DNA from: Asparagopsis taxiformis
Taxonomy: Eukaryota > Rhodophyta > Florideophyceae > Bonnemaisoniales > Bonnemaisoniaceae
Length of the DNA: 64,000 nucleotides
Direction of reading: 5' to 3'
Assembly: GCA_030407315.1 (NCBI GenBank)
Contig: JALQPE010000284.1
Span: forward strand, 19,821-83,820
In this document: positions 32,151 through 59,130 of the stretch, piece by piece
Layout of the letters: every line of letters starts with the position of its first letter
How positions within the stretch are numbered: position 1 is the stretch's first letter
Made by a program: the position numbers and the translations under genes
Notes under the pieces: model-generated
Told to the model about the DNA's origin: nothing
The model's database searches: none
Seen by the model: the letters and a program-made list of their open reading frames with translations, nothing else

Positions 32151-32156
32151 TTTATA

Positions 32157-41445: not shown

Positions 41446-41622
41446 GAGAGAGTGGGGCGGGACCATGATGAAACAAGGACCAAGACCTGTCCCTGGCGTA
41501 TTGAGCCTGAAATCGACCCTTCGTGAGACGCGATTTTGGCTTACAGTTAGTGCTTACAGAAGCCAGTGACAACCCCACTCGGGGCGGCGGTCGGTTCCTG
41601 GGGCCGTTGTGGCCAAATTAGA

Positions 41623-41830
41623 CACCTTGATTTCAATTAAAATTTGGGCTATTCTCAAAAACATGCACATGTGAACATGTTTTTGAGATGGGGGTGTGCC
41701 GTACGGCACAATCGACCGCCCAAATCGATGTTTTTTGCAATATTTTTTTCTGCCCGAAATTGTAGAATTTCTGGGCTGGCCAGCAATGCATCTGAGCTGG
41801 ACATCCACCGGACGTCCATTTCAGGTTGAT
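41623..41830 (+). repeat. Repeat R, copy 2
   Basis: A full copy of about 200 bp. Landmarks: AAAATTTGGGCTATTCTC; a hairpin with a 15-bp stem (CTCAAAAACATG...CATGTTTTTGAG); the perfect 14-bp palindrome GTGCCGTACGGCAC; CGACCGCCCAAATCGATG; and the end GGACGTCCATTTCAGG, which resembles the terminal motif of element 3. Lies 270 bp beyond the 3' end of the dioxygenase gene. Confidence 0.85.
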
Positions 41831-42098
41831 CGTGTATCGTGCACGTCCACCCATTACCGGAAGCAAGTAGGCGATGAAGCACGTACAAACCCAATTGTTC
41901 TGCTATTTCTACCATAGACCATCGAGTCTAGAGATGTGAGGGAATCGTCCTGGAAATCATGCTCCAACCCACGAGGGAATGGACAATCTAGTTTGAAAGC
42001 ATGGAACGGAAGTACATTATACTAGGTTCATAGATTGAAAGTGATAAAGGAGATGATTATATTCTCGATAATTGTTTACCAAAGTAGTAGTTGTTAAG

Positions 42099-43772
42099 CT
42101 ATCTAGCCGTCGGAAAATTGTTCTTCTCTTCGTCCTCACTATATTCAGGATCTCCCGGCAGAATAGGCGTTATCGGCAACTGTGGAGTTGATCTGCTCAA
42201 GATGAATTCTTCACCCGCTGTGAGGGTTCTCTTCTTGGGAGCTTCTGTCGTCTTCATCCGCATGATTCCGAGCTGCCCTGTCTTCGGCCTACGATCTTTC
42301 TTGACCGGGATGGGAACAACTGTCTTGTGGCGAACATTGACAGGTGCCGGTTGACTTTGCCTGGCAGACCGGCGCGGAGCATTGGGGATTACTTCTTCTT
42401 CGAATCCCAACCGCCTGATGAAACCAAACGAAACATTGTCGGGAATCGGATACGACGCATTCCTGAAATACGTGTGATACCTCGTTGTCGTGTGTGACAC
42501 AACTCTGTCGACATGCCCTGCCCCGGCATGTTGTACATGGCCGTGACCGATGAAGACTGAACGTGGCGGAACGATTACCTTCTTCAGCTTCATCGTCTTG
42601 GCGTACATATCTAATTCCAGCGCTTTGGAAAAGACGTACTTGTGGGACCCTGGACACACCCAGATAGGGAATGGGTCATCTCCGTTGGCAATAACAAAGT
42701 AACCCGGAAGTTGATCTTTGCGGTCGCGAGGAGGAACAGGGAAATCATTGTGTGGGACCTGCCGAGGACACCCCTTTCCCGTTATCAAAAACCGTCCCCC
42801 AGATGCCGGCATGACAAGTTTTTCTCCCGGTAAACCGCACTCCTCCAGCCCTATCAGCCGGACAAGGATTCCCAACCACACATCCAGCAGGGCTCGCCGC
42901 GTCACAAACTTGAACCGGTCGATATGCGTCTCATCGTTCTCGGCATAGTCAACCAGGCAGTGGCGCGTAGACGTGAAGCGAGCCCTCCCCTCATTCCGGT
43001 TCTTCTCATCTGTTTCATCGTCCCCTGTATTGACAATGGGACTCCACAGCTGCCGGTTCCCAGGGTCCTTGTGCACCTCCTCCCCCTCCCACGTTCCCAA
43101 AAAGTACCGAAACAATTCCTGGTTAGGAATTTCTTCCATGAGACCCAAGTCAAATGGGAACTTGTCCGACGCATCGAGGTAGCTTACATCCGCGAAATTG
43201 TGCATCACCGTATACCCTCGCTCGTTGATTTCCGTTCGGCAATTGTGGAAGTACGCCATACCAGTGCCGGCCTCATACGAATCCTTCCAGCTTGTAGACA
43301 TTCGCGCAACCTGGGCGAAGTCCAGCCTCGAGGGTAGAAACGTCGATGTAGGCTCACACATCGCCTTGGCAGCCATCTTCCACGCTGCGAAAAACATCGG
43401 ATAGATGGTGTCGATCTCCAAAACAAGATGACGAGCCCGATGTTGTTCCGGAATATGCAGCCCCTCAAACACAGGGTCCATCGCCACTTGCTTCAAATAC
43501 CTCACCTCTCTGCCCTCCTCATCGATTTCCACACTCTCCAATAACAACCTGAGCTCAATCGGGGGCAGACAGCCAACCCTCACCGATGCGATGACGTCCG
43601 CGGGACGCTGCGCCAGATGATGCCCTTCGGCTCGGTCTTTGACTTCGAAATCGTCAGGAAGAGATGGCATACGGTCGTCGAACAGGAGGTCGTGTTCAGA
43701 AGGAGAGTCACGAACGATGTAACCGTCTTCATCGACTTCCACTCCTTCCGGAACAGTGAATGTAATTGTCAC
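42099..43772 (-). CDS. 2-oxoglutarate/Fe(II)-dependent dioxygenase
   Basis: 557 codons from the first start-like codon (GTG, 43772). The iron and cosubstrate residues of the double-stranded beta-helix fold are visible: H341 and D343 in VPHND, H415 in VQHAGAGH, and R431 in TRYHTYF. Between them GYFVIANGDDPFPIWVCPGSHKY has the turn of phytanoyl-CoA-dioxygenase-like enzymes. A basic C-terminal tail (about 470-540) could bind nucleic acid. The GTG overlaps the stop of the ParB-like gene by 4 nt (GTGA), the frame is open for at least 35 codons upstream without ATG, and the next ATG is residue 35. It may therefore be translated as a fusion with the upstream gene through a frameshift or intron. Substrate unknown; a modified DNA base is a reasonable guess because TET/JBP oxygenases ride on fungal transposons. 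Confidence 0.78.
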   Translation of the reverse strand: MTITFTVPEGVEVDEDGYIVRDSPSEHDLLFDDRMPSLPDDFEVKDRAEGHHLAQRPADVIASVRVGCLPPIELRLLLESVEIDEEGREVRYLKQVAMDPVFEGLHIPEQHRARHLVLEIDTIYPMFFAAWKMAAKAMCEPTSTFLPSRLDFAQVARMSTSWKDSYEAGTGMAYFHNCRTEINERGYTVMHNFADVSYLDASDKFPFDLGLMEEIPNQELFRYFLGTWEGEEVHKDPGNRQLWSPIVNTGDDETDEKNRNEGRARFTSTRHCLVDYAENDETHIDRFKFVTRRALLDVWLGILVRLIGLEECGLPGEKLVMPASGGRFLITGKGCPRQVPHNDFPVPPRDRKDQLPGYFVIANGDDPFPIWVCPGSHKYVFSKALELDMYAKTMKLKKVIVPPRSVFIGHGHVQHAGAGHVDRVVSHTTTRYHTYFRNASYPIPDNVSFGFIRRLGFEEEVIPNAPRRSARQSQPAPVNVRHKTVVPIPVKKDRRPKTGQLGIMRMKTTEAPKKRTLTAGEEFILSRSTPQLPITPILPGDPEYSEDEEKNNFPTAR

Positions 43773-46099
43773 TTCGCGGACCCCCTTGCTTTCGACTTGG
43801 CCCTCGTCTGCACCCTGTTTTCTTCCTCGTCCGAAGCGGTATGGACAGATTCTTGGTTGGAGGGAGTCGCACCAGCACGTTGGTTATCTTGGGGGACAAT
43901 CTCAACGGCAGAATCGGGGGAACGGGCGGAGTCTTCGTCACCCTCATCACCGGAAACAGTGGCTTGTTGTTGATCGGTGGGTTTATCAACAACGGCCTGC
44001 TCTTCTTCCCCGGCGGATTGTTGTACCACAACCGGCTCTTCTTCCTCGAGGCGTGTGCTCCCCGTCGAGCGAAGTCGCTGTGAACGGCGGCGGATGCCAT
44101 GCGAAGCAGGCTCATGTTCGACATTCCGCTGCTTCTTGTGAGTGAGTCTCACATTGGCAGCAGAAGGGCGGCGTTTGCGTCGAGCCTTAGTCTTCTTCTT
44201 CAATGTCGGATTGAAAAACTCTTTCAAGTTCGTTTCCAAATCCTGTAAACGCGTGGTTCTCCGTCGCATTCGAACCTCACTGCTCCGGTCGTCCCCTCTA
44301 TACATTGCAATGGCATTGGTGAGATGCCATTGCAACTCCTTCGGCTGCTTAACCGACCCAATTGCCATCTCTGTGCTCAGAAATGACTTGCGCATAATAC
44401 TCTTTGGGCGCCCATACGCAGCGTACAGAGAATTTGCTATTGCAGTCACGCGACGGACGTATGTATAGAAGTCGTTCACGTCAAAGCGTCCATCCGGACG
44501 TCCACCATGAGCAGGGTTCAAGTACTCCGAAAGACCACGCAAGACGAAGACAAAGTTTTCTTCCAGCAACTCGCGCACTATCTTGTGGTCCAGGTGCGTT
44601 ATCCCAATCTCGTTGCGGCGCTCGGAATTGTTCAGCTCACGCAACACTTCGTCGAGAACAGGATGCTTCAGCGTTGCTATAGCCAAACGCGTCCACCGCC
44701 GGGCCGTGTTCGTTGAATTCATCATCCCCATGAACTGCGCCTCGAACAATGTTCGGATGACATCAGACTCACGCAAGTCGCCAGCGTTTTCCACGTTATT
44801 TGCAACAGCAATCGTACGGATGAACTGCTGGATGGACGACAAGATTCGAACCAGGGAGCGCTCCGTCAGTTGCGTCCCAGTCGTATGGTTCGACTCTGCA
44901 CTCTTGTGGATGATCTCATGAGGCTGAAGATCACTGTCGTCCTTGCGGCGAAGGTAGTACACATCCAGAGGCTGAGTAACCCAGCGCAAGCGGTTTGCGT
45001 CCTGTGGCAGCTTGGTTCTGTGCATACGGGTGAGGCGCGTGAAGTCATCGGCAATGCTATGCATAGCATTGAGACGATGCAGTCCGTCGATCACGGTCAC
45101 GTTCGCATTGGCATGGAATTTGCCATTCTGGAACAGACGCGTGTCGGCGGGCAGATGCGTGTTCTGCGACCTCAGCACCGTCACAGTGATACGCGAAGAG
45201 CTCACATACCCCACAGCCAACATATTGTTGCGCAGGTCCTCCACGTGGTCTTCTTTCACATCCCGAAGGGTCACGGCCTGTTCCACTAGCTGCCTCACCA
45301 ACACAGTCGCTCCTTCTCCGACGTAATCCGACGTCACAAACTTGGGCACCGTAATTTGCGTCCCCTGCTGCTCACGAATGCTTTCCGCCACCTCCGGTTC
45401 GTCGTCCACCTCGGTTACGTCCTGCGTAGTAGCTTCGGTGACGTTGGAGCGAGCAGGGTGCTTCGTGCCTCCACTGGAGGCTCTGGCAGAGCGAGCAGGG
45501 TGCTTCGTGCCTCCACTGGAGGGTCTCGCAGAGCGAGCAGGGCGCTTCGTGCCTCCCGAAACCGGAATGGAGCGTGCTGGATGCTTCGTACCCCCCGAAC
45601 CAGTGATTTCGCCTGCCGGACCGGTACTGGGCATCCGTCCCGAGCTGGCCTGGTTCGTCGCTGCGTTGAAGTTTGACGCTGCAGCAGGGGTACGAATGTC
45701 GCTAGGGCCATCCTCCGCAGCGGGGCGCATCATCCGAGTATCCCAAGGGTAAAACGCCGCGGCGTATGCTCCACCCATCGTCTCCGGCGGTCCCTCGGCG
45801 CCATCAAACATGTACGGGAACGGGAGGTCCTTGAACTTGTCCTTAGTCGCAATGTTGCGCACGACGATATAGTCCGCCTCGTCGGTTTCCGGCAGCTTGT
45901 GGTTGTGCAGCGTGCGCGGAAGGCCAACATCGCCACCAGCAGTGCTCACCGAAGCCGTCCCAATATGCACAGCCGCACCGTCCACGTCCGCAAACAAATT
46001 GACATCGACGCCGCGCTTGAGTCCGCGCGACTCCGCTGACGCGCTCACTTGATCGCCGCAAACCGTTGAAAACAAACTGCTGAAATGCGTATCCGCCAT
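43769..46099 (-). CDS. ParB/Srx-like domain protein with N-terminal cargo module
   Basis: About 776 codons from the ATG at 46099 (MADTHFSSLFSTVCG); upstream codons to 46246 lack ATG. Residues 20-120 end in EGPPETMGGAYAAAFYPWD...M, matching the C-terminal module of the methyltransferase at 12873. Next come four tandem copies of SGGTKHPARS-like units (about 165-220), basic and possibly DNA-contacting. Then a ParB/Srx-like domain follows with VIDGLHRLNAM near 336 and downstream helices matching those of the element 1 protein. A basic KKKTKARRKRRPS patch and a long acidic tail close the protein. In bacteria ParB-like domains bind parS DNA or hydrolyse nucleotides; here the role is unknown. It is directly upstream of the dioxygenase, in a 4-nt overlap. 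Confidence 0.8.
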   Translation of the reverse strand: MADTHFSSLFSTVCGDQVSASAESRGLKRGVDVNLFADVDGAAVHIGTASVSTAGGDVGLPRTLHNHKLPETDEADYIVVRNIATKDKFKDLPFPYMFDGAEGPPETMGGAYAAAFYPWDTRMMRPAAEDGPSDIRTPAAASNFNAATNQASSGRMPSTGPAGEITGSGGTKHPARSIPVSGGTKRPARSARPSSGGTKHPARSARASSGGTKHPARSNVTEATTQDVTEVDDEPEVAESIREQQGTQITVPKFVTSDYVGEGATVLVRQLVEQAVTLRDVKEDHVEDLRNNMLAVGYVSSSRITVTVLRSQNTHLPADTRLFQNGKFHANANVTVIDGLHRLNAMHSIADDFTRLTRMHRTKLPQDANRLRWVTQPLDVYYLRRKDDSDLQPHEIIHKSAESNHTTGTQLTERSLVRILSSIQQFIRTIAVANNVENAGDLRESDVIRTLFEAQFMGMMNSTNTARRWTRLAIATLKHPVLDEVLRELNNSERRNEIGITHLDHKIVRELLEENFVFVLRGLSEYLNPAHGGRPDGRFDVNDFYTYVRRVTAIANSLYAAYGRPKSIMRKSFLSTEMAIGSVKQPKELQWHLTNAIAMYRGDDRSSEVRMRRRTTRLQDLETNLKEFFNPTLKKKTKARRKRRPSAANVRLTHKKQRNVEHEPASHGIRRRSQRLRSTGSTRLEEEEPVVVQQSAGEEEQAVVDKPTDQQQATVSGDEGDEDSARSPDSAVEIVPQDNQRAGATPSNQESVHTASDEEENRVQTRAKSKARGSAK

Positions 46100-46445
46100 G
46101 GTTGTTGAGTTGGAAAGGAAAAGAGATGGTTGACGTTGACGTATTGGAGTGATGTGGATGGTATGTTTCACGTTGTTGAAGAATGGTCGTGAACGCCAAT
46201 CGCTGGAAATAATAACACAATACAACCGAAATTTTGTTAGGTACACACCTATCGTGACCGCTGGAATGCAAGACAGGCAATCGAGATGTGAGTGTCCGTT
46301 CGGAACGGGCCCGAGTCGGGCTCTCGAAACCTGACGAGGTGGCGTGAAGCAGGCAGTGTCCTTGATGTGTAATGTGTTAAAATTACAGCTGTCAAGCTAG
46401 GCGGCTTTTGGGGCGGCTGCGAGCACCCCTTTATCCGGGGAACAC

Positions 46446-46615
46446 CCTGATTTGAGTTAAAATTTGGGCTATTCTCAAAAACATGCACATGTGAACATGT
46501 TTTTGAGATGGGGGTGTGCCGTACGGCACAATCGACCGCCCAAATCAAGGTTTTTTACAATATTTTTGCTGCCCGAAATTCTACAATTTCTGGGCTGGCC
46601 AGTAATGCATTAGCT
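46446..46615 (+). repeat. Repeat R, copy 3
   Basis: Same landmarks as copy 2, truncated on the right after GGGCTGGCCAGTAATGCAT. With copy 2 it brackets the dioxygenase/ParB gene pair in direct orientation. Confidence 0.85.
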
Positions 46616-47140
46616 ATCTGCTCTAAACCGATTCTAACAAGCAGAAAGAATCCTCTCCTTCATGACGATGCTCTCGAATTGAGTGCAATGCAACGGACTC
46701 CCTCCAAGAGAACGACAAAGCATCGTCTTTTCCAAGGCATTTCCGTACGAAAAATAATCGAAAAACATATTTGACTTTAACCTAACAGCTATCGCGAGCA
46801 CCGTACTCAGCTATATTTCCTCTGTAATTTCCTTCCTCCAACCAATCAATAGCCGCTTGGTCACAGGCTTAAAAGCCTTCCACTATCTGTCCTATCCATC
46901 GAAGACCCTCGGAGGGTTCGATCCAGGCCTTGATCACCCATGATGGGTGTGCAACCCGAGAAAATGAAAATGGAACATATTGCGACAGGGACGAGATATC
47001 ATTCAATGAAAGAGAAGTTCTCTTTCGTTTACTTTTTTCTAACAAGATTCTAAACGTCTACAAACCCTATGTCGTCCGTCCGTTTTCATCCCGGAGAGAT
47101 GTGGATGTGAGGTAAGACGCAGTGGTGATGTTGTGTTGAT
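46616..47140. other. Gap without recognised gene
   Basis: No ORF with support and no repeat recognised. Confidence 0.4.
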
Positions 47141-47150
47141 TCCCACAGAC

Positions 47151-47390
47151 GGAGGTGGAGGAGGTGGCTACGGAGGAAGCCTGGAGAACTTGTCCGGTAC
47201 TGACATCTCACATGTTGCCATTAACGGAGGTGGTGGAGGAGGCTATGGTGCAAGCCTGGAGAACATGTGACTCACATCTCGCAGATGTCAGTACCCATGG
47301 ATGAGAAGAAAAGCATGTTGAGGTGCGGTTCGGATATTCGATCCATTAACGGAGGTGGTGGAGGAGGCTATGGTGGAAGCCTGGAGAAGA
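47151..47390 (+). repeat. Gly-rich-coding short repeat, three copies
   Basis: GGAGG(T)GGTGGAGGAGGCTA-type units followed by GG(A/C)AAGCCTGGAGAA begin near 47151, 47226 and 47349. They could encode a GGGGGGYGGSLE motif, but no long frame spans all three copies. TGACATCTCACATG and an inverted relative lie between them. Confidence 0.6.
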
Positions 47391-47685
47391 ATAGAGTAGT
47401 CCTATACCCATGGATCACAAGAAGACGTTGTTGGGCTCCTTTTCGAAGCCCATTCGTCTCTTGAATAAATTTAGCACCCAAATCATATACGATTGCCGAG
47501 TTGACACCCCGTATGTCTCGTTGGTAGAAATAGCAGGGGTTCCACCACTCAGCTGGCGGGAAGTAGTTACTGATTATATGAGATATGGCTTAGCTCCCGC
47601 CAAAACCGATAGCTCTGGGCTCAGGTTCTCCAAATGTGGTTATACGAATGTGTTCTGACAATGCTAGAAGACGAATATCTGCATC

Positions 47686-47885
47686 CTGATTTGAATTAAA
47701 ATTTGGGCTATTCTCAAAAACATGCACATGTGAACATGTTTTTGAGATGGGGGTGTGCCGTACGGCACAATCGACCGCCCAAATCGATGTTTTTTTGCAA
47801 TATTTTTTCTGCCCGAAATTGTAGAATTTCTGGTCTGGCCAGCAATGCATCTGAGCTGGACATCCCCATGTCCAGTGGCCGTCCG
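47686..47885 (+). repeat. Repeat R, copy 4
   Basis: A full copy with hairpin and GTGCCGTACGGCAC palindrome. Its right end differs (GACATCCCCATGTCC). Lies 330 bp before the methyltransferase-SET gene. Confidence 0.85.
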
Positions 47886-48215
47886 GATGTCGCTCACCTG
47901 GTAAGCGTGATGCACCTGTGACAACCTATGTGACTGCAGTCACAGCCGCCATGGCGGCCGTGCAGTACAACACTCAAAGACAGGGAATCACAATCTTTTT
48001 AAAATTTTTCTCTACCACGTATCCGTCACAACTTATTACCTACACCGGTTACGGGTTTCAAGACCTTTCCAGTGCTGTGTACCCGTATACTCTGTTCCGT
48101 TCGATATCAACCAGTGTTCCTCACGAAAGAGTGCAAACGTCACGAGATACGTCGTCAAATTTGACTGTCTCGCCGAGCGGTCGCCATCCTGTACCGAATT
48201 TCCACTCATTCCATT

Positions 48216-51200
48216 ATGACGAATAAGCGCAGGCGCAACAGCAATCCGATCGTTGACGACGCAACCGTGCCAATTCTGCGCGAACCCGCTAGCCCTTGGG
48301 AGGATTCTAGTGACATGGGTACACGTCGAAACGTAGGTCGCGCCGCCCGCGAAACTACTCTCGCTGGCAAAGACTTCCTCCGCCTCTTGCTGGATTTATT
48401 CGCCCACTCAAGTTTCGCAGACTTGACGGACAAGCCGGGAGGTTTCACATACGCGGACCTTGGCGCTTGGGTTGCGCAGGGCACGGAAGAACAATTTCTG
48501 GCGCTGCAAGGTCGACTCAGCATGGCCTTCAGCGGTCGTTCGAAGAATGCTGGAGTCGAGGCGGATGTTGCCGAAATCGTCATGGCAGAGATGAACGTTG
48601 AGCGAGCCAAGCAGATTGTTCGTCTGGCATTACCGATTGCCGAGTTTTCAAGACAGGATGAGCGTATCGGGCAATGGGTTGAGCACTGCATCCTTTCTGG
48701 GATCGTGCCGCAGACCTTCCTTATTGGATGTAACATGCTTCCTTCGCCACTACAGGCGCCGCAGCGCGGGGAACCAAGCGCCTTCGTTCTTGCTCCACCG
48801 GAAACGTTCGAGGTATTGATGTATTTCCAAGCGTTGTCTATCATCCGAAATCACAACAAGAACCTGCCGCGTCGCCGAATAGGCGACGCGGCCGAAGAGG
48901 GGAACGAAGCCGCACGCGTCCCAGCCCATCGGAAAAGCACTAATCGAGCTTGTTACGTGGTTCAAGTTTTATACCATGCTTGGACCGATGTGGCCTTCGC
49001 CGCAAAGTTTTCCAGCTTCGAAGAGTTGATGGCGCCGTACATCATTTTCGACAGCAGTGAGCATTGGTTTGACGTGCTCGATGAAGGTCTATTCGCACCG
49101 ATGGAGCAGAAGCTAGATCTCTACCACGACAAAGCTCCCCTATCTCATCCTGATGGATATGGTGGAAAAGTAGAGACAAGAACCAGTGCGCAGCACAGTG
49201 CATTTAGGGACCTTGTGAGGAAGTTCTTCGACCGGTTGCAGTTTCTTATCGTCAACCCGGACCTGTACACCTGGCCGGAGTCCGACCGCTGGGGGGCGCT
49301 GGAAATATACTTGTCAAGCGGAAATCCGGACAAGCTGCCAGCGTACTTTGACACCCTCGACGAAGACGTTATGGCTGTCCTCCGCCCGGCACCACAAGCC
49401 GCGGACGCAGAAAAGGTCCCCAAGCCGGTTGATGACACTCCCACTCGTCGCAACACAGGAGGGAGAGGTTTGGTTCCGTCGACAAGACACACAACCAGGC
49501 TTCAACTTGGACCTGGGAGGACCAGTCTTACTGCCCAAGGGCCGTCTCCCCCGTCACCGTCACCCCATGCGACAGAAGAGCAGGAAAGTGAAGGGCAGGC
49601 TCTCGCAAAGGACTTTCTTTCGAAAATGAGTCAGTATTGCCGGGTGTACGACGTCCCTTTCGAAGATTTGGTCAGTGCCGACGAGAGCCGAGAACACGTG
49701 CCCATCACGGGCAACGTTCAGCTCATTCTGACTGATCCGCCCTACAATGTTCGTCGTAAGAGGAACGATTCCAACTCTTCGTACGACAGGCTAACTGCAG
49801 AAGATATGCAGGCTAGCATCGAAGTGTTTGACGAGCTGTTGCGCCCCGGTGGCCACGGCATCGTGTTCTGCTCCGTTTTGCAGTTCTACGAATGGTTCCA
49901 TTACTTGGAAACGTACAAAGGACCGCAGTCAGAAGGCCCAACCGATGCTGCTGCCAGTGATGACGGGTCGGATGAAGAAGAGGTTACGTCCATGAATTCG
50001 GACTCCGAAGCATCGCAGCACAGTGGCGAAGAAAGTGCGGATGAGGAGGAGGAGGAGGAGGAGGACGTCGTTCGGAATTCAGTTTTCTTCGTTGACGAGG
50101 TACCTCTGTTGTTTGTCCGACTACCTGGGCACCTCTATCAAATGCCGGGGCGGAAGAGGTACCAACGCATGAACATGGCAGAGGTCGCTATCCACTTCTG
50201 GAAGCGAGGTGTTCCGTTCAAGACTGGAAGCGAGATGGTGGCCTATAGGAACCACGGATACATGGACGGCACGTACCCGGCGTGGTGCAACGTCACCATC
50301 AATATGCCCGCCATCGATTCGAATGAGATGGTGTGGCGAACAAGGAGCACAACCGGTGCTACGGTCAGAGTTCGTGCAGAGCAGAAGAGCGTCGCTCTCA
50401 TGATGGAGTTGATCAGCCAGCATTCACAGCCTGGTGATATTGTTGTCGATCCATTCTCTGGCACTTTCGCAACGGGAAAAGCAGCTATGAGCTTGCCTGA
50501 GCACCGTGTTTTCGTCGGCAGTGACATGGACAAATTGTGTGTGGCACGATCGCTTCCAAAGCTGTGTGCAGTCATGTCACGTGTAATTCTTTCAAACAAC
50601 ACTGACATGAGGGTCACGACAGAAGCGAAACAGAGTGCTGAGAAGTTCTTGGCGTCCCCCTCTGTCACGATGCGTACGCAGAGGGAACGCAGGATCATCG
50701 AACCCCCACCTGGCCTTCCCCTGTACCAGAGGTTCCCGAAATATATTCGGCAGTACCTCTGGCAGCTGTGCCCAGAGTCGATTGCGTCGCACGAGCACAT
50801 GGAAAAACCGGTACATTATTGGCCACCTTCCCTGCGCCGCTGGTTGCAAACTGAAAACCCTCGCGTGATGCGGGCACACGATTGTGTTGCGAAAAAATTG
50901 AGCGTTCGACCATCGCTGATTAAGCATCCAAATGCAGGAAGAGGGCTCTTCGCTGAACAGACATTTAATGTTGGCGACGAAGTATGTGCATACTACGGAA
51001 CTGTTGTGTACTCTGATATGAGCAAGGAGTCGATGAGGTTCGCGTACGGAGAGGGTCACATGGCGATAACGAAGGAAACATTCTTGATGTATGCCATCAA
51101 GCTGTATGCAACAGCGGAGGACGACGAAAACATCGAGCATCCAATTTGGATTGTTCCGGCTCCGTTCTGTTCGGCGCAGTTCATCAACGACCCGCGGTAT

Positions 51201-51410
51201 TTGCGAGGTGAGGACACTCCGGCGGAAGACACCAGGCGGATGGCCAACGTCGAGTTTGTCGAGAACTACAGCAGCGGTTCGACGGGGAAGAAGCTCAAGG
51301 CGAAGGACCTAGAAAATCCGAAGATCATTGTAGTACGTGCAATCCGCGATATCCGTCCGGGGCAGGAGCTCTACGTTCATTATGGGACAGCGTTTAGAGC
51401 ATGGAATTAG
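48216..51410 (+). CDS. DPPY DNA methyltransferase fused to a SET domain
   Basis: 1064 codons, no interruption, ATG start. Residues 1-370 are a helical region with no recognised domain. Motif IV DPPY is at residue 507 (LILTDPPYNVRRKR) and motif I at 745 (VDPFSGTFATGKA), the beta-class order of N6-adenine/N4-cytosine methyltransferases. An acidic insert (Glu run near 605-615) separates them. Residues about 905-1060 form a SET domain: HPNAGRGLFAEQTF, then FINDPR with NVEFVE (the NH..C-type cofactor motif in variant form), and AIRDIRPGQELYVHYG. SET domains methylate protein lysines, usually histones. One protein would thus write both DNA and protein marks. Both catalytic motifs look intact. Bracketed by repeat R copies 4 and 5. 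Confidence 0.88.
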   Translation: MTNKRRRNSNPIVDDATVPILREPASPWEDSSDMGTRRNVGRAARETTLAGKDFLRLLLDLFAHSSFADLTDKPGGFTYADLGAWVAQGTEEQFLALQGRLSMAFSGRSKNAGVEADVAEIVMAEMNVERAKQIVRLALPIAEFSRQDERIGQWVEHCILSGIVPQTFLIGCNMLPSPLQAPQRGEPSAFVLAPPETFEVLMYFQALSIIRNHNKNLPRRRIGDAAEEGNEAARVPAHRKSTNRACYVVQVLYHAWTDVAFAAKFSSFEELMAPYIIFDSSEHWFDVLDEGLFAPMEQKLDLYHDKAPLSHPDGYGGKVETRTSAQHSAFRDLVRKFFDRLQFLIVNPDLYTWPESDRWGALEIYLSSGNPDKLPAYFDTLDEDVMAVLRPAPQAADAEKVPKPVDDTPTRRNTGGRGLVPSTRHTTRLQLGPGRTSLTAQGPSPPSPSPHATEEQESEGQALAKDFLSKMSQYCRVYDVPFEDLVSADESREHVPITGNVQLILTDPPYNVRRKRNDSNSSYDRLTAEDMQASIEVFDELLRPGGHGIVFCSVLQFYEWFHYLETYKGPQSEGPTDAAASDDGSDEEEVTSMNSDSEASQHSGEESADEEEEEEEDVVRNSVFFVDEVPLLFVRLPGHLYQMPGRKRYQRMNMAEVAIHFWKRGVPFKTGSEMVAYRNHGYMDGTYPAWCNVTINMPAIDSNEMVWRTRSTTGATVRVRAEQKSVALMMELISQHSQPGDIVVDPFSGTFATGKAAMSLPEHRVFVGSDMDKLCVARSLPKLCAVMSRVILSNNTDMRVTTEAKQSAEKFLASPSVTMRTQRERRIIEPPPGLPLYQRFPKYIRQYLWQLCPESIASHEHMEKPVHYWPPSLRRWLQTENPRVMRAHDCVAKKLSVRPSLIKHPNAGRGLFAEQTFNVGDEVCAYYGTVVYSDMSKESMRFAYGEGHMAITKETFLMYAIKLYATAEDDENIEHPIWIVPAPFCSAQFINDPRYLRGEDTPAEDTRRMANVEFVENYSSGSTGKKLKAKDLENPKIIVVRAIRDIRPGQELYVHYGTAFRAWN

Positions 51411-51635
51411 GGTCACGAAAGATGTTTTCATTTCGACTACAAATAAAGCTACGTTCCAGAGTTGAAGTATATCATATAATGCAGCATGTCCAGCCACCAT
51501 TAGTCCAGGGTGAAACCTATTGAGCAGTACTCGCCTGTCAAAAACCAATCGTTCACACTCTAGGTGCACTTCGTCCGAGCAGTGAACCTGACTGCTTGGA
51601 TGCTGTTATGCGTGCAGATGCAAAATACACGACCA
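51411..51635. other. 3' flank of methyltransferase-SET gene
   Basis: Short non-coding spacer; an AATAAA hexamer near 51442 may serve polyadenylation. Confidence 0.35.
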
Positions 51636-51840
51636 AGTTGAAATGGACGCCCGGTGGATGTCCAGCTCAGTTGCATTGCTGTCCAGCCCAGAAATTCTAC
51701 AATTCAGGGCAGAAAAAAATATTGCAAAAAACATCGATTTCAGCGGGTCGATTGTGCCGTACGGCACACCCCCATCTCAAAAACATGTTCACATGTGCAT
51801 GTTTTTGAGAATAGCCCAAATTTTAATTCAAATCAGGACG
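51636..51840 (-). repeat. Repeat R, copy 5 (inverted)
   Basis: Reverse complement of copies 2-4, with the same hairpin and palindrome. Forms an inverted pair with copy 4 around the methyltransferase-SET gene. Confidence 0.85.
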
Positions 51841-52070
51841 TCTTCCGGACATAGGGGTGCTCGCGGCCTAGCTCGACAGCTGTAATTGTACCTCATTAAA
51901 TACTGTTGATGACTGCCTACCGTATACAATCTGGGCTGTTGGCGTATTCTCCGGTACTTGACCTGACCTGAACGTTCATCGCAGACCGTTGTGGTTACCG
52001 ACACTATACAGCAATCTTTTTTGTATCTCGTGCAACTCAATCGTTCCATCGCTTCCGGGAAAGCTTCATT

Positions 52071-52868
52071 ATGCCGCCGCGTATTGCGAAGAAAGCTCCA
52101 AAGCCTCCGGGCCTCCAGAAAACCCGGTCAGCAGCTGCTGTATCGAGTGCCCGACAATCCCGTGCGAAGAAGCGGTCTGGGCCTACCGGCAGCATTGAAC
52201 CGCGGTCCGGTAGTCGCAAGACGGACCGGCGCAGAACTGGGGATCCGCAGCGAGAAAGTGAGGAAGGAGGAACGGCGCGGAGAGAGATGGGGCTTGACCG
52301 AGGCAAGCGTGCTCGCAGGGACAGTGAACATCATGATGATGACATGATAGTGGCTCAAAACATGTTGGAATTGCGGCAGAGTGCTATGGCAAAGGTAGTT
52401 CCTCCCGGGTTGGCAGATGCGGAGGTGCTGCAGACGGAGTCCCAGCCGGGGGTTCGCGAGACACTGGAGGCTGTGACCCCCACTGCGCCAACTATGCCGA
52501 GTACATCAGCCCCAGCAGGTAATGCAGTCAGGGACCCGAGGATAGCGGCAAGGGATGTTGTTTCTGAGCAACGTTCACAGGATGCCAACTATCATCGGCG
52601 GTCAGGTGGTACTGAGGGGAGAGAGCAGCCGGAGTGCGGGCCTCGTCACAACAGACTGTCATTGGTGCCAAATATGCGCGTAACGCCCCCGCGACGTCAG
52701 GCTATTGCCGATGGAGGACATCATATTCCCGATAGCGTGCGAGATGGGGGGACGGTGAGGGCAGAGAGGTTGCATCCGCCGGAATCCATCGATTTAATGG
52801 CGAGTCGCATCAATGCGCAGAAGAAGAAGATCGCGGAGCTGGAAAAAAAGTGTTTAGCCAGGACATAG
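52071..52868 (+). CDS. Coiled-coil protein, N-terminal frame
   Basis: 265 codons from ATG. A basic, Pro/Arg-rich N-terminus (MPPRIAKKAPKPPGLQ) with several Lys/Arg clusters is followed by low-complexity sequence, and it ends in the start of a coiled coil (INAQKKKIAELEKK). At 52844-52850 the zero frame reads A-AAA-AAG, after which a -1 shift leads straight into the 52850-54355 frame and continues the heptads (VFSQDIANKALTTEIVALEA). I take the two frames as one gene expressed by -1 frameshifting, or a gene with one indel. Without a shift the product ends 6 codons later in CLART. Function unknown; the basic, coiled-coil layout suggests a nuclear or structural partner. Confidence 0.6.
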   Translation: MPPRIAKKAPKPPGLQKTRSAAAVSSARQSRAKKRSGPTGSIEPRSGSRKTDRRRTGDPQRESEEGGTARREMGLDRGKRARRDSEHHDDDMIVAQNMLELRQSAMAKVVPPGLADAEVLQTESQPGVRETLEAVTPTAPTMPSTSAPAGNAVRDPRIAARDVVSEQRSQDANYHRRSGGTEGREQPECGPRHNRLSLVPNMRVTPPRRQAIADGGHHIPDSVRDGGTVRAERLHPPESIDLMASRINAQKKKIAELEKKCLART

Positions 52869-54355
52869 CAAACAAGGCGCTCACCACGGAGATAGTTGCG
52901 TTGGAGGCTAAGGTGAAGACTCTGCAGGCGGAAAATGCCAGCCTTACTGCAATTGCGAGAACAGGTAGAATCAGTGATCACGGTGGCGGTAAGTCGAAAA
53001 TACAGAAAGCCATTCCTGTGAAATACCTTGGAGTTCTTAGGGCGGTTGAGGAAAACCTGACAAAGTGGTGCAAGAACGAGACTATGGAGCTGGACCCTAT
53101 AGCGGAACAAACGCAGAGACGTTGGACTGGACGTACCATCGAGGTAGAGCCGGTAGAAGGGACACTTTGGAGCGAAAACGGTGTAGGATATATTGCTACC
53201 CCTCCGGGCTATATCATCAAGAATCTGCAGTGGTATACACCTTCGTACAGAGACGAGAGTGATCTGCTGAATGACTTGGTGCGACACGTACTGCGTCAAA
53301 GTCCGTGGTGTGATGTGTTTTCCGATGAGGAGCAGCGTGTGTGCTGTCAAGAGGCTGTGGCGGGGAGCAAGGAATTGAAAGTGAAGGTGACGCAGAAACT
53401 GTCCGACGTGATGAGTGCACGGAAGCGTAATGCGAGGGACAGATTGTTCGGTTCGCTGGGGTACACGAAATTAATGTCTAGATGCACGATGCTGACGACG
53501 CGAGCTGAGATGGACGAGCGAGAGGATCAAAAGCGCGAAGCGTCTGAGAAGCTTTTGAAACGGGAAAGCAACGGTGATTTGGATATGGGGAGGTGGCGAA
53601 CGGCACCGTTCTCAGAGCTGCGATACAGCAAAGGCATGGTTCCTGACAGCTTCGAAATGGAAGTGAATGGTGATGCATGGTTTAACAACCGAGTAGCTGT
53701 GAATGTGCTGGACATCTTCAGGGGTTATTCGATACGACCAGAACAAGTAATGGACATAGAGACGAGCATACTAACGCTGGCGCGCCTGGATGCTTGGCTA
53801 GTGACTACTGTGGAGTGTTTGGATGAACCGAAGGGGAAAGGAGGTGCACGGCAGAAGGAGTTTACAAGGCGGTACAGTCAATATGTGGGGGTAGCTTTTC
53901 AGCAATTAGTTGGTATGGTGGTGTACTGCATGTCTTGTCTCCAAGGCTCGCAAGCAAGGGAAGAAACGGACGTTGTCGAGAGCGAACAGCGGACTAGTGC
54001 ACAGTCACGGCATGTGTTTGCAAGCCGTACTGTGACGAGAGAGGCTGTTGAAGTGTGGCAAAGCGGAGAGGGGTCTGGAATTGTTCATGTCGTTGATGAT
54101 GTAAACCGCTGCTCATCACTTGTTCTAGTGTCCGAGGATTGGATTCAATCGCATATTACGTCAAACCTCGGTGCTGTAATGGATTGTGTGATTGCGCAAG
54201 GACTAATTGGCGCAGAACTTTTCGTCGTTGACCCATATGCTGGACACCTGAGTGCAAACCTGAATGTCGAAATCAATGCCCCACAGTATGGGGGCATGGA
54301 GCGGCGCCATGCAGCCACTGCTGATAACGGTTTTGGCGTAATGGAGGATGGTTGA
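52850..54355 (+). CDS. Coiled-coil protein, -1 frame body
   Basis: About 500 codons without an ATG at the beginning (the frame opens at a GTG inside the overlap). Starts with the heptad pattern EIVALEAKVKTLQAENASL, then a mixed alpha/beta region with conserved-looking blocks (GTLWSENGVGYIATPPGY, LFGSLGYTKLMSRC, WFNNRVAVNVLDIF). I do not recognise a family. It lies 80 bp from the converging transposase-like gene, and both probably share terminator DNA. Its presence between the methyltransferase-SET and transposase-like genes suggests an accessory role in the element. Confidence 0.6.
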   Translation: MFSQDIANKALTTEIVALEAKVKTLQAENASLTAIARTGRISDHGGGKSKIQKAIPVKYLGVLRAVEENLTKWCKNETMELDPIAEQTQRRWTGRTIEVEPVEGTLWSENGVGYIATPPGYIIKNLQWYTPSYRDESDLLNDLVRHVLRQSPWCDVFSDEEQRVCCQEAVAGSKELKVKVTQKLSDVMSARKRNARDRLFGSLGYTKLMSRCTMLTTRAEMDEREDQKREASEKLLKRESNGDLDMGRWRTAPFSELRYSKGMVPDSFEMEVNGDAWFNNRVAVNVLDIFRGYSIRPEQVMDIETSILTLARLDAWLVTTVECLDEPKGKGGARQKEFTRRYSQYVGVAFQQLVGMVVYCMSCLQGSQAREETDVVESEQRTSAQSRHVFASRTVTREAVEVWQSGEGSGIVHVVDDVNRCSSLVLVSEDWIQSHITSNLGAVMDCVIAQGLIGAELFVVDPYAGHLSANLNVEINAPQYGGMERRHAATADNGFGVMEDG

Positions 54356-54432
54356 AATTAGTGCAGTAAATGTGACGTTGACTAGAAGGCTTATCATGTA
54401 GTACATTATCAATAGAGTGCTGCGATTTAGAT

Positions 54433-57400
54433 TTATTCTTCTTCATTATCATCTGTGAACTGGTAATCAGTGTTGGTGTAGAAGCGGTTGAGATAGAAAC
54501 GGTGGTCCGACCAGTGCATTTGTTTCGTAAATGGCTTGACTGGAAAGTTACTTCGTACGATGTGCACGGTGCCAGATATAGTAGATGCAGGAATGAGGTC
54601 AAACCAAGGACCACCTGCACTGTGGGATGCAGTGTCATTGCTGTCAACGGATCCGTTGTCCGGGTCCCATGTGGACCACTTTAAACAAATGCACCCAAGT
54701 GATTTTTCCACAGCGGTTTTTGGGGCAAAGCAGGTCATATACTGAACGAAAGCGAGTTCTACAGGTTGAAACAGGTTTGGAGACTGCAGGCGTACCAGTG
54801 CCAGGACGCGCCCTACCCATATGGTTCTGTAGTCATCGGCAGTTCCGGAGATGACGACAAAGGAGTACTGCGATCTCTTTGCGGGGCCGAATGATGAAGT
54901 TGCAAAGACGCGCTGCTGCTTGTGCCTCGACACGTTTGTGGGGCGAAGCATGCCACTGTGCGGGTCAAAGTCGTCGGCATCTGGGACGTACCCTCCCATG
55001 ACGTAGGCGGACTTTACCACGGTGACGGAAATGTCCATGTCATGTATTGGAGGGCCTTCTGCCGTGGCGCGCAGTCTAGCGAGGGTGAGGAACGCTTGTG
55101 CAGCTGTGTCACCGAGTTGCTGGAATAGCGTTATGGTGCCAGACGGGAACGAGGAGTTGTGCAGAGGCAAAAGAGTGGCAGGATCGGGCTGTCCGTCGAT
55201 ATCTGCAACGAGGAGGGTTGCATCGGGCAGCAGGGAGGCAAAGTCGTGCAGTGCAACGGTGAATCCGTCGCGAACGAGTACTGCACCGTCTGTGGGCGAT
55301 ATCATGCGTGCGTTTCCCAATGTGTTCGATGGGGTGTGACCAGTTGGAGTGGCCAAGGAGAATTCCATGTGGCGAATAGTCTCTTCCATGGCTGTGGAGC
55401 GCCTTCGAGAGGTTTTCCTATAACTCTGTTTGAACAGAAGATGCGAGTGTTCGTAGGGGCCTGCATCAATGTGTTCCAGGGCGCCATATCTCTGCAAGTC
55501 ACCGGGAAGATGGTCTAGAAGATGGAACTTGAAAGTTTTGAGACCTGTGGTGTGGAATGGGCCGAGGGTGGAGAGCATTGATTGTTTGAAATAGGAAATG
55601 GAGTTCTGGAGGCTTTCTAGTTCGGCGGCAGTCCAGTGCTTGATGCGACCGCGTTTCATGACCCATGCGACGAGGTCAGAGTATTGCGTGCAGATGGAAG
55701 TGAGGGGGGCTGTCTCTACTTCGTCACAGCATGTGTCAATGAATGCTGCGATGAAAGGGAACACCATGTCGACATGGTGATAGTCTTTGGCTGCGAGCAT
55801 GCCGCGTATGCCGTCCTCCGTGAAGAGGCCGTTCAAATTGGTGCCCTTCTCACCCTTGGAGAAGTCGACATGAAGACCGGTGATGTAGTAGTCGCGTTCG
55901 ATAGCGGACAGAATGCTGTTTGAGCCGGCGAGGATGGATTTTTTCACCTTCTTGAAGGTGCGAGGTGTCCCGGAATGGGAGGCAGTGGTGGTGGTGAGGT
56001 CTGGGGAGCTGAGGCGGTGGACAATGCACTGTTTGATGAGCTTTGAGATGCCGAGGTGGAGATTGTGCAGAGGCTCGAAGGAGAAAATGTTGTAGGGGTC
56101 TAGGGGACTGTTGGTGGGTAAAAGAGCGGTCGATTCGAGGACAGAGTGTTGTTCGAGGAGGGAGAGAGCTTCGAGCGGAGCAGTTGTATGCTCCTGAGCG
56201 CTCTCTTGGCGTGCAGAGCGTGTATCATCGAGGGAGCGGGGCTGGTGTGGCGCGGTGGATTCAAGTTGAGTGGCGGGGATGTAGCAGCGGTGGCAGGGAT
56301 GTGTGGTGGTAGTGCTGTTGCGAGTGCATGACAGCTCTTTGGCCTCTGGAAAGTCGCAGCAATAATTGGCTAGGATGGGAAAGCATTGGCGGGCAGTTGC
56401 AGTGGAGTCTGTGCAGGGGAACCCGGAAGAGAACGCGGTGGATAGGGACGAAAACACTTTTTCGAGTGCTTTATGAAGAATATCAATTTTGCGAGCGCGA
56501 CTAGCAGAACTAGAGGTTGTCGGCATTTCATCACCGAACAAGGCGTTGGACGAAGGGTTAACAATGTACGGAAGATACCCGACGATGGTGAGGCCGGTAC
56601 GGATGCAGTGGCGACGGAGGGGGGCGGAGAAGTTGAGCAGTGTGACGTGTATGGGGTATGCGACGATTGCGGAGCTCTTGAGGCTTGTGCTGCTCTTGTC
56701 GGAGTACACTTGGAGGAGGCCGGCAAAGGAGGAAGGTGTGGGATCAGTTTCCTCTGCCCATACGACCTGTGGATCTTCCGAGAGCTGCACGCGCTGTCTA
56801 GTAACCTGGTGCAGCGTTTTCGCGAATTCTGTGTGTAGGGGATGAGAAAATATTGCGGTGCCGTCTGGGGCGGTCTGTGGGGAGGGGTGGAAGAGAGTAT
56901 TTTGGTCGTTAGCCAGTGCTAACTGCCTGCGGAGCATGTCGACTGGGTCGCGGAGGTACAGCTGTGCCGAGTACTTACCAGTTTTGTCTGGAATGATGTG
57001 GCTCTTGTAACCTTCGGTGCGGAAATGTGTTTCGACCATGGAAGCGGTAACGTGGCGACATTCTTCTACGGTGCGAACGGCGCTGTTGAACTTTTCTAGG
57101 GAGAATGCGGGGTCTTGTAGGATGGTGATGACTTCGCTCACGCGGCCAGCGCCGGCCTTGTACTCGAGGGTTGTGAGACTGGCGGCGAGGGATTGCACGA
57201 GGAGGTCTGCGCGGGAGGGGGTTGAGGTTGGTGGCAGTGGAGCGTCACAGGGTGAGTCGCTGGAGGAAGCACGACCAGATTCTGGGTCTGGGGAGCTGGG
57301 TTGCGGGGAATCATGGTCGCCGTTTCGAGCAGGCTCATGGGTGACGGCAGGGACACGAGCGTTGTTGAAATGTTGGGGAGAGGGGTTGAAACGGTAGCGA

Positions 57401-57474
57401 CACGTTCGCTCATGCAGCGCGAGCGCATAAGCATCTACGCAGTAGTAGAAGCACCCTTCATACTTGCATTCCAT
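54433..57474 (-). CDS. Large transposase-like protein with BAH-like tail
   Basis: 1013 codons, ATG start. An N-terminal Cys/His motif (CKYEGCFYYCVDAYALALHE) may bind zinc. HPCHRC lies near residue 394, and FSFEPLHNLHLGISKLIKQC near 467. The last resembles the D.xHN.FLG block of CACTA/Plavaka-type transposases, although the acidic residue here is E. YEHSHLLFKQSYRKTSRR follows near 680. The C-terminal 150 residues (SFVVISG...IWVGRVLALVR..., WFDLIPASTISGTVHIV) have the same BAH-like layout as the element 1 candidate. An acidic DDNEEE ends the chain. It is the only strong transposase candidate in elements 2 and 3. The family name is uncertain. Confidence 0.72.
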   Translation of the reverse strand: MECKYEGCFYYCVDAYALALHERTCRYRFNPSPQHFNNARVPAVTHEPARNGDHDSPQPSSPDPESGRASSSDSPCDAPLPPTSTPSRADLLVQSLAASLTTLEYKAGAGRVSEVITILQDPAFSLEKFNSAVRTVEECRHVTASMVETHFRTEGYKSHIIPDKTGKYSAQLYLRDPVDMLRRQLALANDQNTLFHPSPQTAPDGTAIFSHPLHTEFAKTLHQVTRQRVQLSEDPQVVWAEETDPTPSSFAGLLQVYSDKSSTSLKSSAIVAYPIHVTLLNFSAPLRRHCIRTGLTIVGYLPYIVNPSSNALFGDEMPTTSSSASRARKIDILHKALEKVFSSLSTAFSSGFPCTDSTATARQCFPILANYCCDFPEAKELSCTRNSTTTTHPCHRCYIPATQLESTAPHQPRSLDDTRSARQESAQEHTTAPLEALSLLEQHSVLESTALLPTNSPLDPYNIFSFEPLHNLHLGISKLIKQCIVHRLSSPDLTTTTASHSGTPRTFKKVKKSILAGSNSILSAIERDYYITGLHVDFSKGEKGTNLNGLFTEDGIRGMLAAKDYHHVDMVFPFIAAFIDTCCDEVETAPLTSICTQYSDLVAWVMKRGRIKHWTAAELESLQNSISYFKQSMLSTLGPFHTTGLKTFKFHLLDHLPGDLQRYGALEHIDAGPYEHSHLLFKQSYRKTSRRRSTAMEETIRHMEFSLATPTGHTPSNTLGNARMISPTDGAVLVRDGFTVALHDFASLLPDATLLVADIDGQPDPATLLPLHNSSFPSGTITLFQQLGDTAAQAFLTLARLRATAEGPPIHDMDISVTVVKSAYVMGGYVPDADDFDPHSGMLRPTNVSRHKQQRVFATSSFGPAKRSQYSFVVISGTADDYRTIWVGRVLALVRLQSPNLFQPVELAFVQYMTCFAPKTAVEKSLGCICLKWSTWDPDNGSVDSNDTASHSAGGPWFDLIPASTISGTVHIVRSNFPVKPFTKQMHWSDHRFYLNRFYTNTDYQFTDDNEEE

Positions 57475-58060
57475 GTCGAGTTTTGACGCAAAAGGGAGGA
57501 TTGCGAGCTGAACAGGGGAGACTGTGCCGTCCAGATGCGACCAATTTTATTTTTGTGGTGCTTTCGAGACTTGGAATGTAACGTGTTCGTAGTTTTGTGG
57601 GTAGTAGTTTTGTGCTCACTCCAGCTGACATCCCAACGGTGGAATTTAACCGAGAGTTCAATCATTTCCAACTGTTACATCACATTGCGTGCTGGCAACG
57701 TGTGCATGGAAGGACGAACGACTGCCCTGGGAGATGAATTTTCAATTAATTCATTTGTAATAATAAACTTTTTTATTTCCGAACTTCGTGGAATCTGAAT
57801 GTGCTTTACAGCGGATATGCCACGGATCATGTAAGGAAAGCAAATGGATTCTCATATATATGATTATATGTTTATATTCGTTGTTCTCGATCCGGATCTC
57901 ATTGTTCGGGGATTCAGAGACCATGGCTTGGGCCATACTCAATCTCACTGCCGGCGATGATTTCGAGTATGCACAGCAAGACTTAAGCGGACGCTGAAAG
58001 CTGTCCGGTCGACGCCGCAGGCTCCACTCCGCCCTCATCACCGACTGAGATTCTTTGACC
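57475..58060. promoter_or_regulatory. Upstream region of the transposase-like gene
   Basis: No ORF with support. It must contain the promoter for the minus-strand gene; no distinct TATA box assigned. Confidence 0.3.
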
Positions 58061-58069
58061 GCCTTTGCT

Positions 58070-59130
58070 TTGTTTAGTGTAGAGGATGGACGAAGGTACG
58101 TGCGCGAATCTTGAGGGTATGCATTGAGGGAAGCGTGGGTTTTGAGTCTGACTATTTCCGTTGATGCGATATTTTTCATTGGAAGCCTGTTGACTCATGG
58201 TGTGTATTGAGCGGAGGATGGAAGAGAGGTACGTGAAGTTTTGAAAGTATGCTGCGAGGGAAGGTTGGTTTTGAGTCTGACTGTTGTGGTTGATTCCGAT
58301 GTTGTGTAGATGATGCAGGAATGTTGATGACGGAAGGTAAGTTTCATTGAGTGCCAAGATGTGCTTTGCGAAGATATGGACTGCTGACTATGATTATTAT
58401 TCATTGCAAGGTTTTTGGATCATGGTTTGTATTGTGTGTAGGATGGATGAGAGGTACATTTGCGAGTTCTCAGGGTATGTAGCGAGGGAAACGTTGGTTT
58501 TCAATCTGACTGTTGCGATTGATTCCGATGTTGCGTAGGTGATGGAGGAATAGTGATGACGGAAGGTAAGTCACATTGGGCGCCCAGACCGGTTGTGCGA
58601 AGATGCGGAATGCTGACTACTTTTCTTGGCTACACGATTACGTGATTTATGGTTTTTATTGTGTGCAGGATGGAACAGGTAAGGTAAGTGTGCGAGTTTT
58701 GAAAGTAAGCAGCGAGGGAAGGTTGGTTTTGAGTCTGACTATTTCCGTTGATGCGATATTTTTCATTGGAAGCCTATTGAGTCATGGTGTGTATTGTGTG
58801 GAGCGAAGGTAAGTGTGCGAGTTTTGAAAGTATGCTGCGAGGGAAGGTTGGTTTTGAGTCTGACTGTTGTGGTTGATTCCGATGTTGTGTAGATGATGCA
58901 GGAATGTTGATGACAGAAGGTAAGTTTCACTGAGCACCAAGACTTGTTTTGCGAAGATATGGACTGCTGACTTTGATTATTCATTGCAAGGTTTTTGGAT
59001 CATGGTTTGTATTGTGTGTAGGATGGATGAGAGGTAAGTAAGGGAGTTTCTAGGATATCTGTCGTGGTAAGCGTTGCTTTTGAATCTGACTGTTGTGGTT
59101 GATTGATGTTGTGTATGTGATGCAGGAGTG
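58070..59130 (+). repeat. Tandem array with phased splice-like signals
   Basis: About nine degenerate units with a period near 115 bp. Donor-like GTAAGT/GTACGT motifs stand near 58093, 58229, 58335, 58455, 58566, 58683, 58808, 58919 and 59033. Each interval has a CTGAC branch-like box and ends in TGTGTAG or similar. Short conserved segments between acceptor and donor alternate: GATGGATGAGAG (12 nt) and a 27-nt segment ending GTTGATGACGGAAG. Two unit types therefore alternate, as tandem introns with micro-exons would. Confidence 0.7.

Follow-up and report, generated by a model that had tools for sequence, protein, structure and literature searches.

A predicted DNA methyltransferase–SET fusion protein carried by a recently amplified Plavaka-type transposon of the red alga Asparagopsis taxiformis

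Introduction

Among the described systems closest to the one reported here is N4CMT of bdelloid rotifers, in which a bacterial amino-methyltransferase is joined to a chromodomain and acts with SETDB1 (PMC8885841). There the DNA writer and the histone methyltransferase are separate proteins, and N4CMT is a host gene directed against transposons, whereas the protein that is our subject is a single transposon-borne chain: a fusion of a beta-class amino-methyltransferase with a SET domain, encoded by a Plavaka-type DNA transposon of the red alga Asparagopsis taxiformis. The stretch analysed, hereafter the window, comprises 64,000 nucleotides (nt) of contig JALQPE010000284.1 (positions 19,821 to 83,820, assembly GCA_030407315.1).

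SET genes and TET-like oxygenases are already known as cargo of transposons (PMC12730594), and so is the entry of a captured amino-methyltransferase into the histone code (PMC8885841). HarbingerS and MuDR of Phytophthora are DNA transposons with a SET histone methyltransferase gene (cited in PMC12730594); they belong to other transposase superfamilies, and the passage citing them mentions no amino-methyltransferase fusion. TET/JBP genes are carried by Plavaka and other fungal transposons (Kojima 2025, PMC12730594). The fungal Plavaka elements resemble the red-algal one in their transposase, their 2-bp target duplications and an oxygenase-type cargo gene, but their termini are TGT (PlavakaA) and CATCA (PlavakaB) rather than CGTCTGTG, the putative red-algal dioxygenase shows no TET_JBP match at E ≤ 1, and the red-algal element has an extra methyltransferase–SET gene and a non-fungal host. 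The Plavaka giant repeats of Amoebidium, which have relatives in red algae (PMC11244446), share a large, Plavaka-linked make-up with intron-poor cargo; they differ in that the cargo named is tyrosine recombinases, that they form tandem clusters of up to 50 kb and that their host carries 5-methylcytosine. SETMAR/Metnase of primates likewise joins a SET domain to transposon machinery, but the partner is a mariner transposase and there is no DNA methyltransferase. The bacterial beta-class N6-adenine enzymes CcrM, M.BceJIV, MboIIA, M1.HpyAVI and RsrI share the catalytic fold of the methyltransferase half; to our knowledge, none of them has a SET domain. No description of a DNA methyltransferase–SET fusion was found among the titles and opening lines of abstracts listed from full-text searches of the open PMC library, which takes in few subscription journals and not Repbase Reports.

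Here we report that the two domains stand in one frame, that the fusion and its signature residues are conserved, that the element has recently been amplified with its genes intact and that a putative dioxygenase recurs as a neighbour. The coordinates of the features are collected in Table 1.

Domain architecture of the fusion protein

The frame is open over 1,064 codons, and both halves match their Pfam families above the curated cut-offs: PF01555 over residues 501–773 (E = 2.9e-15; 57.3 bits against a cut-off of 26.7) and the SET family PF00856 over residues 908–1057 (E = 1e-6; 29.5 bits against 22.4). A sequence-only reading of this DNA had recognised a DPPY methyltransferase followed by a SET domain within a single uninterrupted frame, and it was borne out down to the motifs: DPPY occupies residues 507–510, DPFSGTFATG residues 745–754, and GRGLF, FINDPR, ANVEF and GQELYVHYG all lie inside the SET match. 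With motif IV (DPPY) preceding motif I and with the fold of the class, the first half is classed as a beta-class amino-methyltransferase. Its best matches among solved enzymes, obtained with a profile built from the 35 sequences of alignment A1 (34 homologues besides the query), are 5hek (E = 6e-16; DpnA in the sequence search but M1.HpyAVI in its title), CcrM (3e-9), MboIIA (7e-7) and the bdelloid N4CMT (1.4e-3); the same profile matched the SET enzymes KMT2C (2e-5), an EZH2 chimera (1.9e-4) and KMT5A (8e-4). Profile searches of the two halves, proposed as a check in the earlier reading, thus returned both families over their cut-offs and solved enzymes of both kinds.

The AlphaFold model of the protein is of good confidence across much of both halves. 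Structure comparison matched the methyltransferase fold to solved structures including CcrM, and methyltransferases took all the matches listed; the SET region shows confident strands between residues 895 and 1042. An acidic loop of low confidence lies within the methyltransferase domain at about residues 572–619. The parallel with bdelloid N4CMT that had been drawn from the sequence is a partial one: no chromodomain is found among the Pfam matches of the fusion at E ≤ 1, and the gene is borne by a transposon. The red-algal protein also has DPPY where N4CMT has an N4C-type motif. The Plavaka-type element carries the gene as cargo and not as its transposase, which is a separate ORF (open reading frame) of 1,013 amino acids (aa).

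Table 1 Features of the methyltransferase–SET gene, its transposon and the partner genes (positions in the window)
Feature	Position	Strand	Basis or remarks
Methyltransferase–SET fusion protein	48216..51410	+	1,064 aa; ORF, Pfam, homologues and genome copies
N-terminal helical region, residues about 47–392	48354..49391	+	AlphaFold helices, predicted local distance difference test (pLDDT) mostly 80–96
Beta-class amino-methyltransferase domain, residues 471–800	49626..50615	+	DPPY 49734–49745; motif I DPFSGTFATG 50448–50477
SET domain, residues 905–1060	50928..51395	+	PF00856; PDB profile KMT2C, EZH2, KMT5A; 33/35 aligned sequences
Whole Plavaka-type DNA transposon	39716..59991		20,276 bp; 47-nt terminal inverted repeats; 2-bp target duplication TT
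Plavaka transposase	54433..57474	-	1,013 aa; PF18759 E 3.7e-24
Two overlapping ORFs, 265 and 501 aa	52071..54355	+	No Pfam family over cut-off
Putative 2-oxoglutarate (2OG)-Fe(II) dioxygenase ORF	42099..43772	-	557 aa; HxD...H...R; motif only
825-aa ORF with DGLHR (DGxHR) motif	43769..46246	-	ParB/DndB-like at best
Cargo-flanking repeat, 36-nt palindrome 41653–41688	41370..41870		Downstream of dioxygenase ORF
Cargo-flanking repeat, palindrome 46473–46508	46415..46626		Upstream of DGxHR ORF
Cargo-flanking repeat, palindrome 47712–47747	47684..47865		Upstream of methyltransferase–SET gene
Cargo-flanking repeat, inverse orientation, palindrome 51775–51810	51592..51868		Downstream of methyltransferase–SET gene

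Conservation of the fusion

A protein search returned 60 homologues at E ≤ 1e-3, one of them a near-copy (P0002) with 99% identity and the remainder at most 37% identical over the part searched. Precomputed annotation lists both Pfam domains in 23 of the 60, and rescanning the 35 aligned sequences at E ≤ 0.01 gave PF01555 in all 35 and SET in 33. The DPP[YFW] motif is present in 56 homologues, and R720, D745 and G749 in all 60. At least five of six SET signature residues, which we selected on the basis of known SET motifs and of the alignment, are found in 50 of the 60, and Y1056 is also retained in 50. To compare the divergence of the domains we used the query and 59 homologues, leaving out the near-copy; 57 of these sequences hold at least 180 methyltransferase and at least 100 SET letters (P0046, P0060 and P0061 fall short). 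The median pairwise identity is 36% in the methyltransferase, 29% in the SET domain and 17% in the N-terminal part, and the methyltransferase and SET halves co-diverge (rho 0.37, 0 of 500 permutations). With 60 homologues, domain matches in 35/35 and 33/35 aligned sequences and 43 of 43 intact genome copies, the fusion is more than chance; on this comparison of sequences the methyltransferase–SET fusion is an old conserved family, not an accident of one sequence.

The exceptions bear on whether both halves are catalytic. The ten homologues that fail the six-residue count and the two aligned sequences unmatched by the SET profile weigh against a dual enzyme, and would suit an arrangement in which only the methyltransferase half is active and SET serves as a non-catalytic protein-binding module; with the signature residues and Y1056 each kept in 50 of 60, we regard this arrangement as decidedly unlikely, and conserved residues make both chemistries likely. 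A second methyltransferase–SET family exists in the same genome, on contig C363, with 23% identity to the first (PF01555 E = 2e-16, SET E = 3.6e-6); in a further copy of this type, C2808, the frame ends at the start of SET.

Ends and gene order of the transposon

The terminal inverted repeats, at 39716–39762 and 59945–59991, are 89% complementary and read CGTCTGTG...CACAGACG. Other copies lose their likeness to the window at the same base, with differing flanks, at four left ends (C613, C236, C2140 and C2876, the last with a single altered base) and four right ends (C348, C613, C250, C2140). The left terminus is CGTCTGTG in four of the five left ends read and CATCTGTG in the other, whilst the right terminus is CACAGACG in all five. 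Flanking 2-bp duplications are present in the three elements of which both ends were read (TT in the window and in C613, TA in C2140); the stretches read left of C348, right of C2876 and left of C250 did not include the element end and that right of C236 stopped short of it, and these were excluded from the duplication count. A transposase of family PF18759, terminal inverted repeats and a target duplication of 2–3 bp are the marks of Plavaka, and all three are present. The published Plavaka termini, TGT..ACA or CATCA..TGATG, do not occur at the ends read, and we name the element Plavaka-type by its transposase only.

The dioxygenase and DGxHR genes are read leftward, the methyltransferase–SET gene and two further ORFs rightward, and the transposase gene leftward. 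Tandem minisatellites with 24- and 43-nt spacing lie just within the right end, at 59482–59871. Around the two cargo units a 36-nt palindrome is found about 230–470 bp beyond each end, one copy being inverted (83% in register); it is possibly a shared operator or a binding site of an element protein. We considered the inner repeats as the borders of an independently mobile cassette and rejected this for the sample read, as all 30 copies in it, one of them the window's, stay collinear with the window as far downstream as about 52.9 kb. A viral origin was also set aside: the P0001 scan of viral contigs gave no match, and the A1 scan gave 64 pattern stretches, one of which encodes a relative, with a short match. 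Rfam gave no match.

The ends bear on a different role for the protein, namely control of transposition: methylated ends or subterminal repeats would steer transposase binding or tie jumping to replication, and the substrate of the SET part would be the transposase, or else histones where the element is excised. Dam regulates transposition of bacterial Tn10 and Tn5, and CcrM, the N6-adenine enzyme that the methyltransferase half resembles, is cell-cycle regulated; repeated subterminal motifs are indeed present at the element ends. No target motif was identified, however, and we consider this role rather unlikely.

Copies and recent amplification

Scans of the species' own genome covered 141.5 Mb in 3,156 contigs, and, as they yielded lists of scored places (43 for the fusion, 45 for the Plavaka transposase, 55 for DGxHR), the counts of neighbours are lower bounds. 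The 43 fusion copies, scored from 4,137 candidates and including the window's, are all full length, and the stop between the halves that the sequence-only reading had suggested looking for in related copies is absent from every one; the transposase is open in 45 of 45 copies. A convergent Plavaka gene stands 3,027–3,034 bp downstream of at least 13 of the 43 fusion copies, and a divergent DGxHR gene 1.2–2.8 kb upstream of at least 7 (the window's included in both counts). With one frame kept on separate contigs and independent homologues sharing the fusion, an assembly or gene-model artefact that joined two neighbouring genes has a negligible chance of being the explanation; nothing was found in its favour, an intron within the frame being judged at the DNA level only.

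Among 30 fusion copies the mean difference is 0.12% in the ORF and 0.26–0.55% in the flanking non-coding DNA, and the variant codons comprise 11 synonymous and 7 non-synonymous ones, 4 of the latter in the acidic tract; the low ORF diversity and the codon counts are biased by the choice of copies by protein score. At least 40 left ends (99–100% identical) and at least 40 right ends (96–100%) were found in the genome. Judged from these sequences, the element family underwent a very recent burst of intact copies. This is at odds with self-restraint, whereby DNA methylation and a repressive lysine mark would silence the element after a burst and spare the host, on the model of bdelloid N4CMT and SETDB1, which are proposed to silence transposons together. 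The best SET profile match, KMT2C, also speaks against such a repressive role, although EZH2 follows closely. We hold self-restraint to be unlikely, if worth keeping in mind.

Partner genes

The putative dioxygenase ORF has six homologues. H341, H415 and R431 are invariant across the seven aligned sequences and residue 343 is D in six and E in one; this is a conserved HxD...H triad with a following R, as used by 2OG-Fe(II) dioxygenases to bind their metal and 2-oxoglutarate. The ORF matches neither TET_JBP nor any other Pfam family at E ≤ 1; a search of the genome with PF12851 (TET_JBP) was silent, as was its prokaryote control, and is uninformative. Distant TET/JBP-like proteins may be recognisable by structure alone (PMC12730594).

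In one copy (L040) the DGxHR ORF and the dioxygenase form a single frame of 1,380 aa, and frames of at least 1,300 aa occur in 24 of the 55 scored DGxHR copies and shorter ones in 31, as judged by length with only L040 translated. Profile matches of the DGxHR region are weak (its own profile E = 2.5, at the motif only; DndB E = 0.13 for a relative; ParB-like phrog_1033 E = 0.093 for homologue P0027), and a firm naming as ParB was lowered to ParB/DndB-like. Residues 280–690 of the 825-aa ORF have no homologue at E ≤ 1e-3 among 8,000 candidates scored.

The pairing recurs beyond the window's family. On C363 a dioxygenase relative lies about 2 kb past the 3' end of the fusion gene (L046 2401–3012; profile E = 1.4e-29, blastp of the region E = 2.8e-15), preceded by a frame with a DGSHR motif; the dioxygenase homologue P0066 and the fusion homologue P0036 each come from a contig of 14,025 bases, probably one and the same; and P0027 holds a DGAHR motif, the methyltransferase and SET in one chain. 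Because of these three associations, all read from sequence, the pairing of methyltransferase–SET with DGxHR–dioxygenase is likely to be functional.

The weak likeness to DndB in the DGxHR region of a relative, together with the best phage-family match of the methyltransferase half (phrog_67, DNA methyltransferase, E = 4.9e-17), could also point to selfish marking, in which element DNA would be modified to escape a nuclease of the host or of a rival element in the manner of restriction–modification. The element ORFs scanned matched no nuclease family in Pfam, and the SET domain would be left unexplained; we judge this very improbable.

Proposed mechanism

As a rule, the DPPY motif goes with N6-adenine methylation. 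We favour a scheme in which the DPPY domain would write N6-methyladenine on element DNA, the SET domain would methylate a lysine at that site, with histones as the probable substrate, and the DGxHR–dioxygenase would remove or oxidise the base mark, making the marking reversible; in sum, this would leave the element accessible to transcription and able to transpose in a host seemingly devoid of 5-methylcytosine. The joint reading, a two-headed methyltransferase of a recently active red-algal Plavaka-type transposon with marking and anti-silencing included, is tentative, and we place it somewhat short of an even chance. That the protein might set the chromatin state of the element or its target had been suggested from the sequence and is supported in part; the direction of the mark is something we infer.

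Several points weigh against this scheme, besides the SET exceptions and the selection bias in ORF diversity given above. Anti-silencing is its weakest step, drawn mainly from the element's success. The N-terminal part of the fusion is unexplained, Pfam giving nothing there at E ≤ 1, and FINDPR stands where we would expect the usual SET stretch NHSC. The dioxygenase and DGxHR genes were assigned by their motifs, and neither Pfam at E ≤ 1 nor the PDB sequence search gave anything relevant; a frame break near 43.8 kb separates the two in the window copy, and in many copies they are not one chain. When the 1,380-aa protein was compared with the C363 loci by tblastn, no match appeared at the relative of the dioxygenase; here we gave preference to blastp and the profile.

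If the scheme is true, one conserved protein writing both marks, with a putative dioxygenase beside it, would amount to self-contained chromatin setting by a mobile element. It would make testable an old question, namely how eukaryotes without 5-methylcytosine handle transposons and whether mobile elements can supply marks themselves, and the fusion protein is a candidate laboratory tool for writing both marks.

Amino-methyltransferases in the host genome

The genome scan gave 10 light-harvesting complex (LHC), 13 phycobilisome-linker and 7 tubulin matches (5 of the tubulin matches in long stop-free frames), and contig C38 has all three; linkers of the phycobilisome, when encoded in the nucleus of a eukaryote, indicate a red alga. 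With these LHC and linker genes a fungal host, which the Plavaka gene had at first suggested, was rejected. The top PDB match of the LHC protein is the multi-domain chain 9vfj, and the best single-domain chains are those of 7y5e, which we take to be from Porphyridium. PF00145, the C5-methyltransferase family, had no match in the genome scan, which genes split by exons could escape, and the observed/expected ratio of CpG is 0.96; both agree with a host that, on this evidence, seems to be without 5-methylcytosine. An own-genome search for MT-A70 was silent, as was its prokaryote control, and is uninformative.

PF01555, by comparison, gave at least 150 scored matches over the cut-off, of several families, from 2,605 candidates; in 145 of the 150 the matched part is free of stops. 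The few frames read fall into two groups, methyltransferase–SET (window, C363, C2808) and DGxHR–methyltransferase without SET (window 12873–15683, L042, L043, L045), two of the latter with a Cys-rich tail. A stretch of 40 residues common to the 825-aa ORF and a 936-aa ORF at 12873–15683 (E = 3e-8; GPEEPPTTLGGLHAAGIYVWD / GAEGPPETMGGAYAAAFYPWD) links the two groups; it is reminiscent of a domain of plant transposons. In A. taxiformis the mbb (bromoform) contig is drawn with site-specific and adenine-specific DNA methyltransferase genes (PMC12115072), which may be cargo of such elements. With so many amino-methyltransferase genes, many of them probably transposon-borne, and no detectable 5-methylcytosine writer, the chemistry of DNA methylation in this red alga might have passed to its transposons, one ancient lineage of which would couple a DNA mark and a histone lysine mark in a single protein, as a complete, mobile, reversible two-layer system with an oxidative eraser, a possibility that we regard as doubtful but not far-fetched.

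Other elements in the window

A second element type occupies 9051–15683, where a DUF7869 ORF at 9051–11735 (PF25273, E = 2.9e-48) adjoins the 936-aa ORF, which has a DGMHR motif and a PF01555 match (E = 9.5e-12) and no SET match. Identical inverted ORF sets at 6099–6986 and 30520–31407 (100% over three overlapping frames) form the arms, about 24 kb apart, of a further large inverted repeat. A Ty3/gypsy-like retroelement, read from its frames, lies at 18134–25104, and a Helitron-like N-terminal domain at 32147–33580 (PF14214, E = 4.5e-18).

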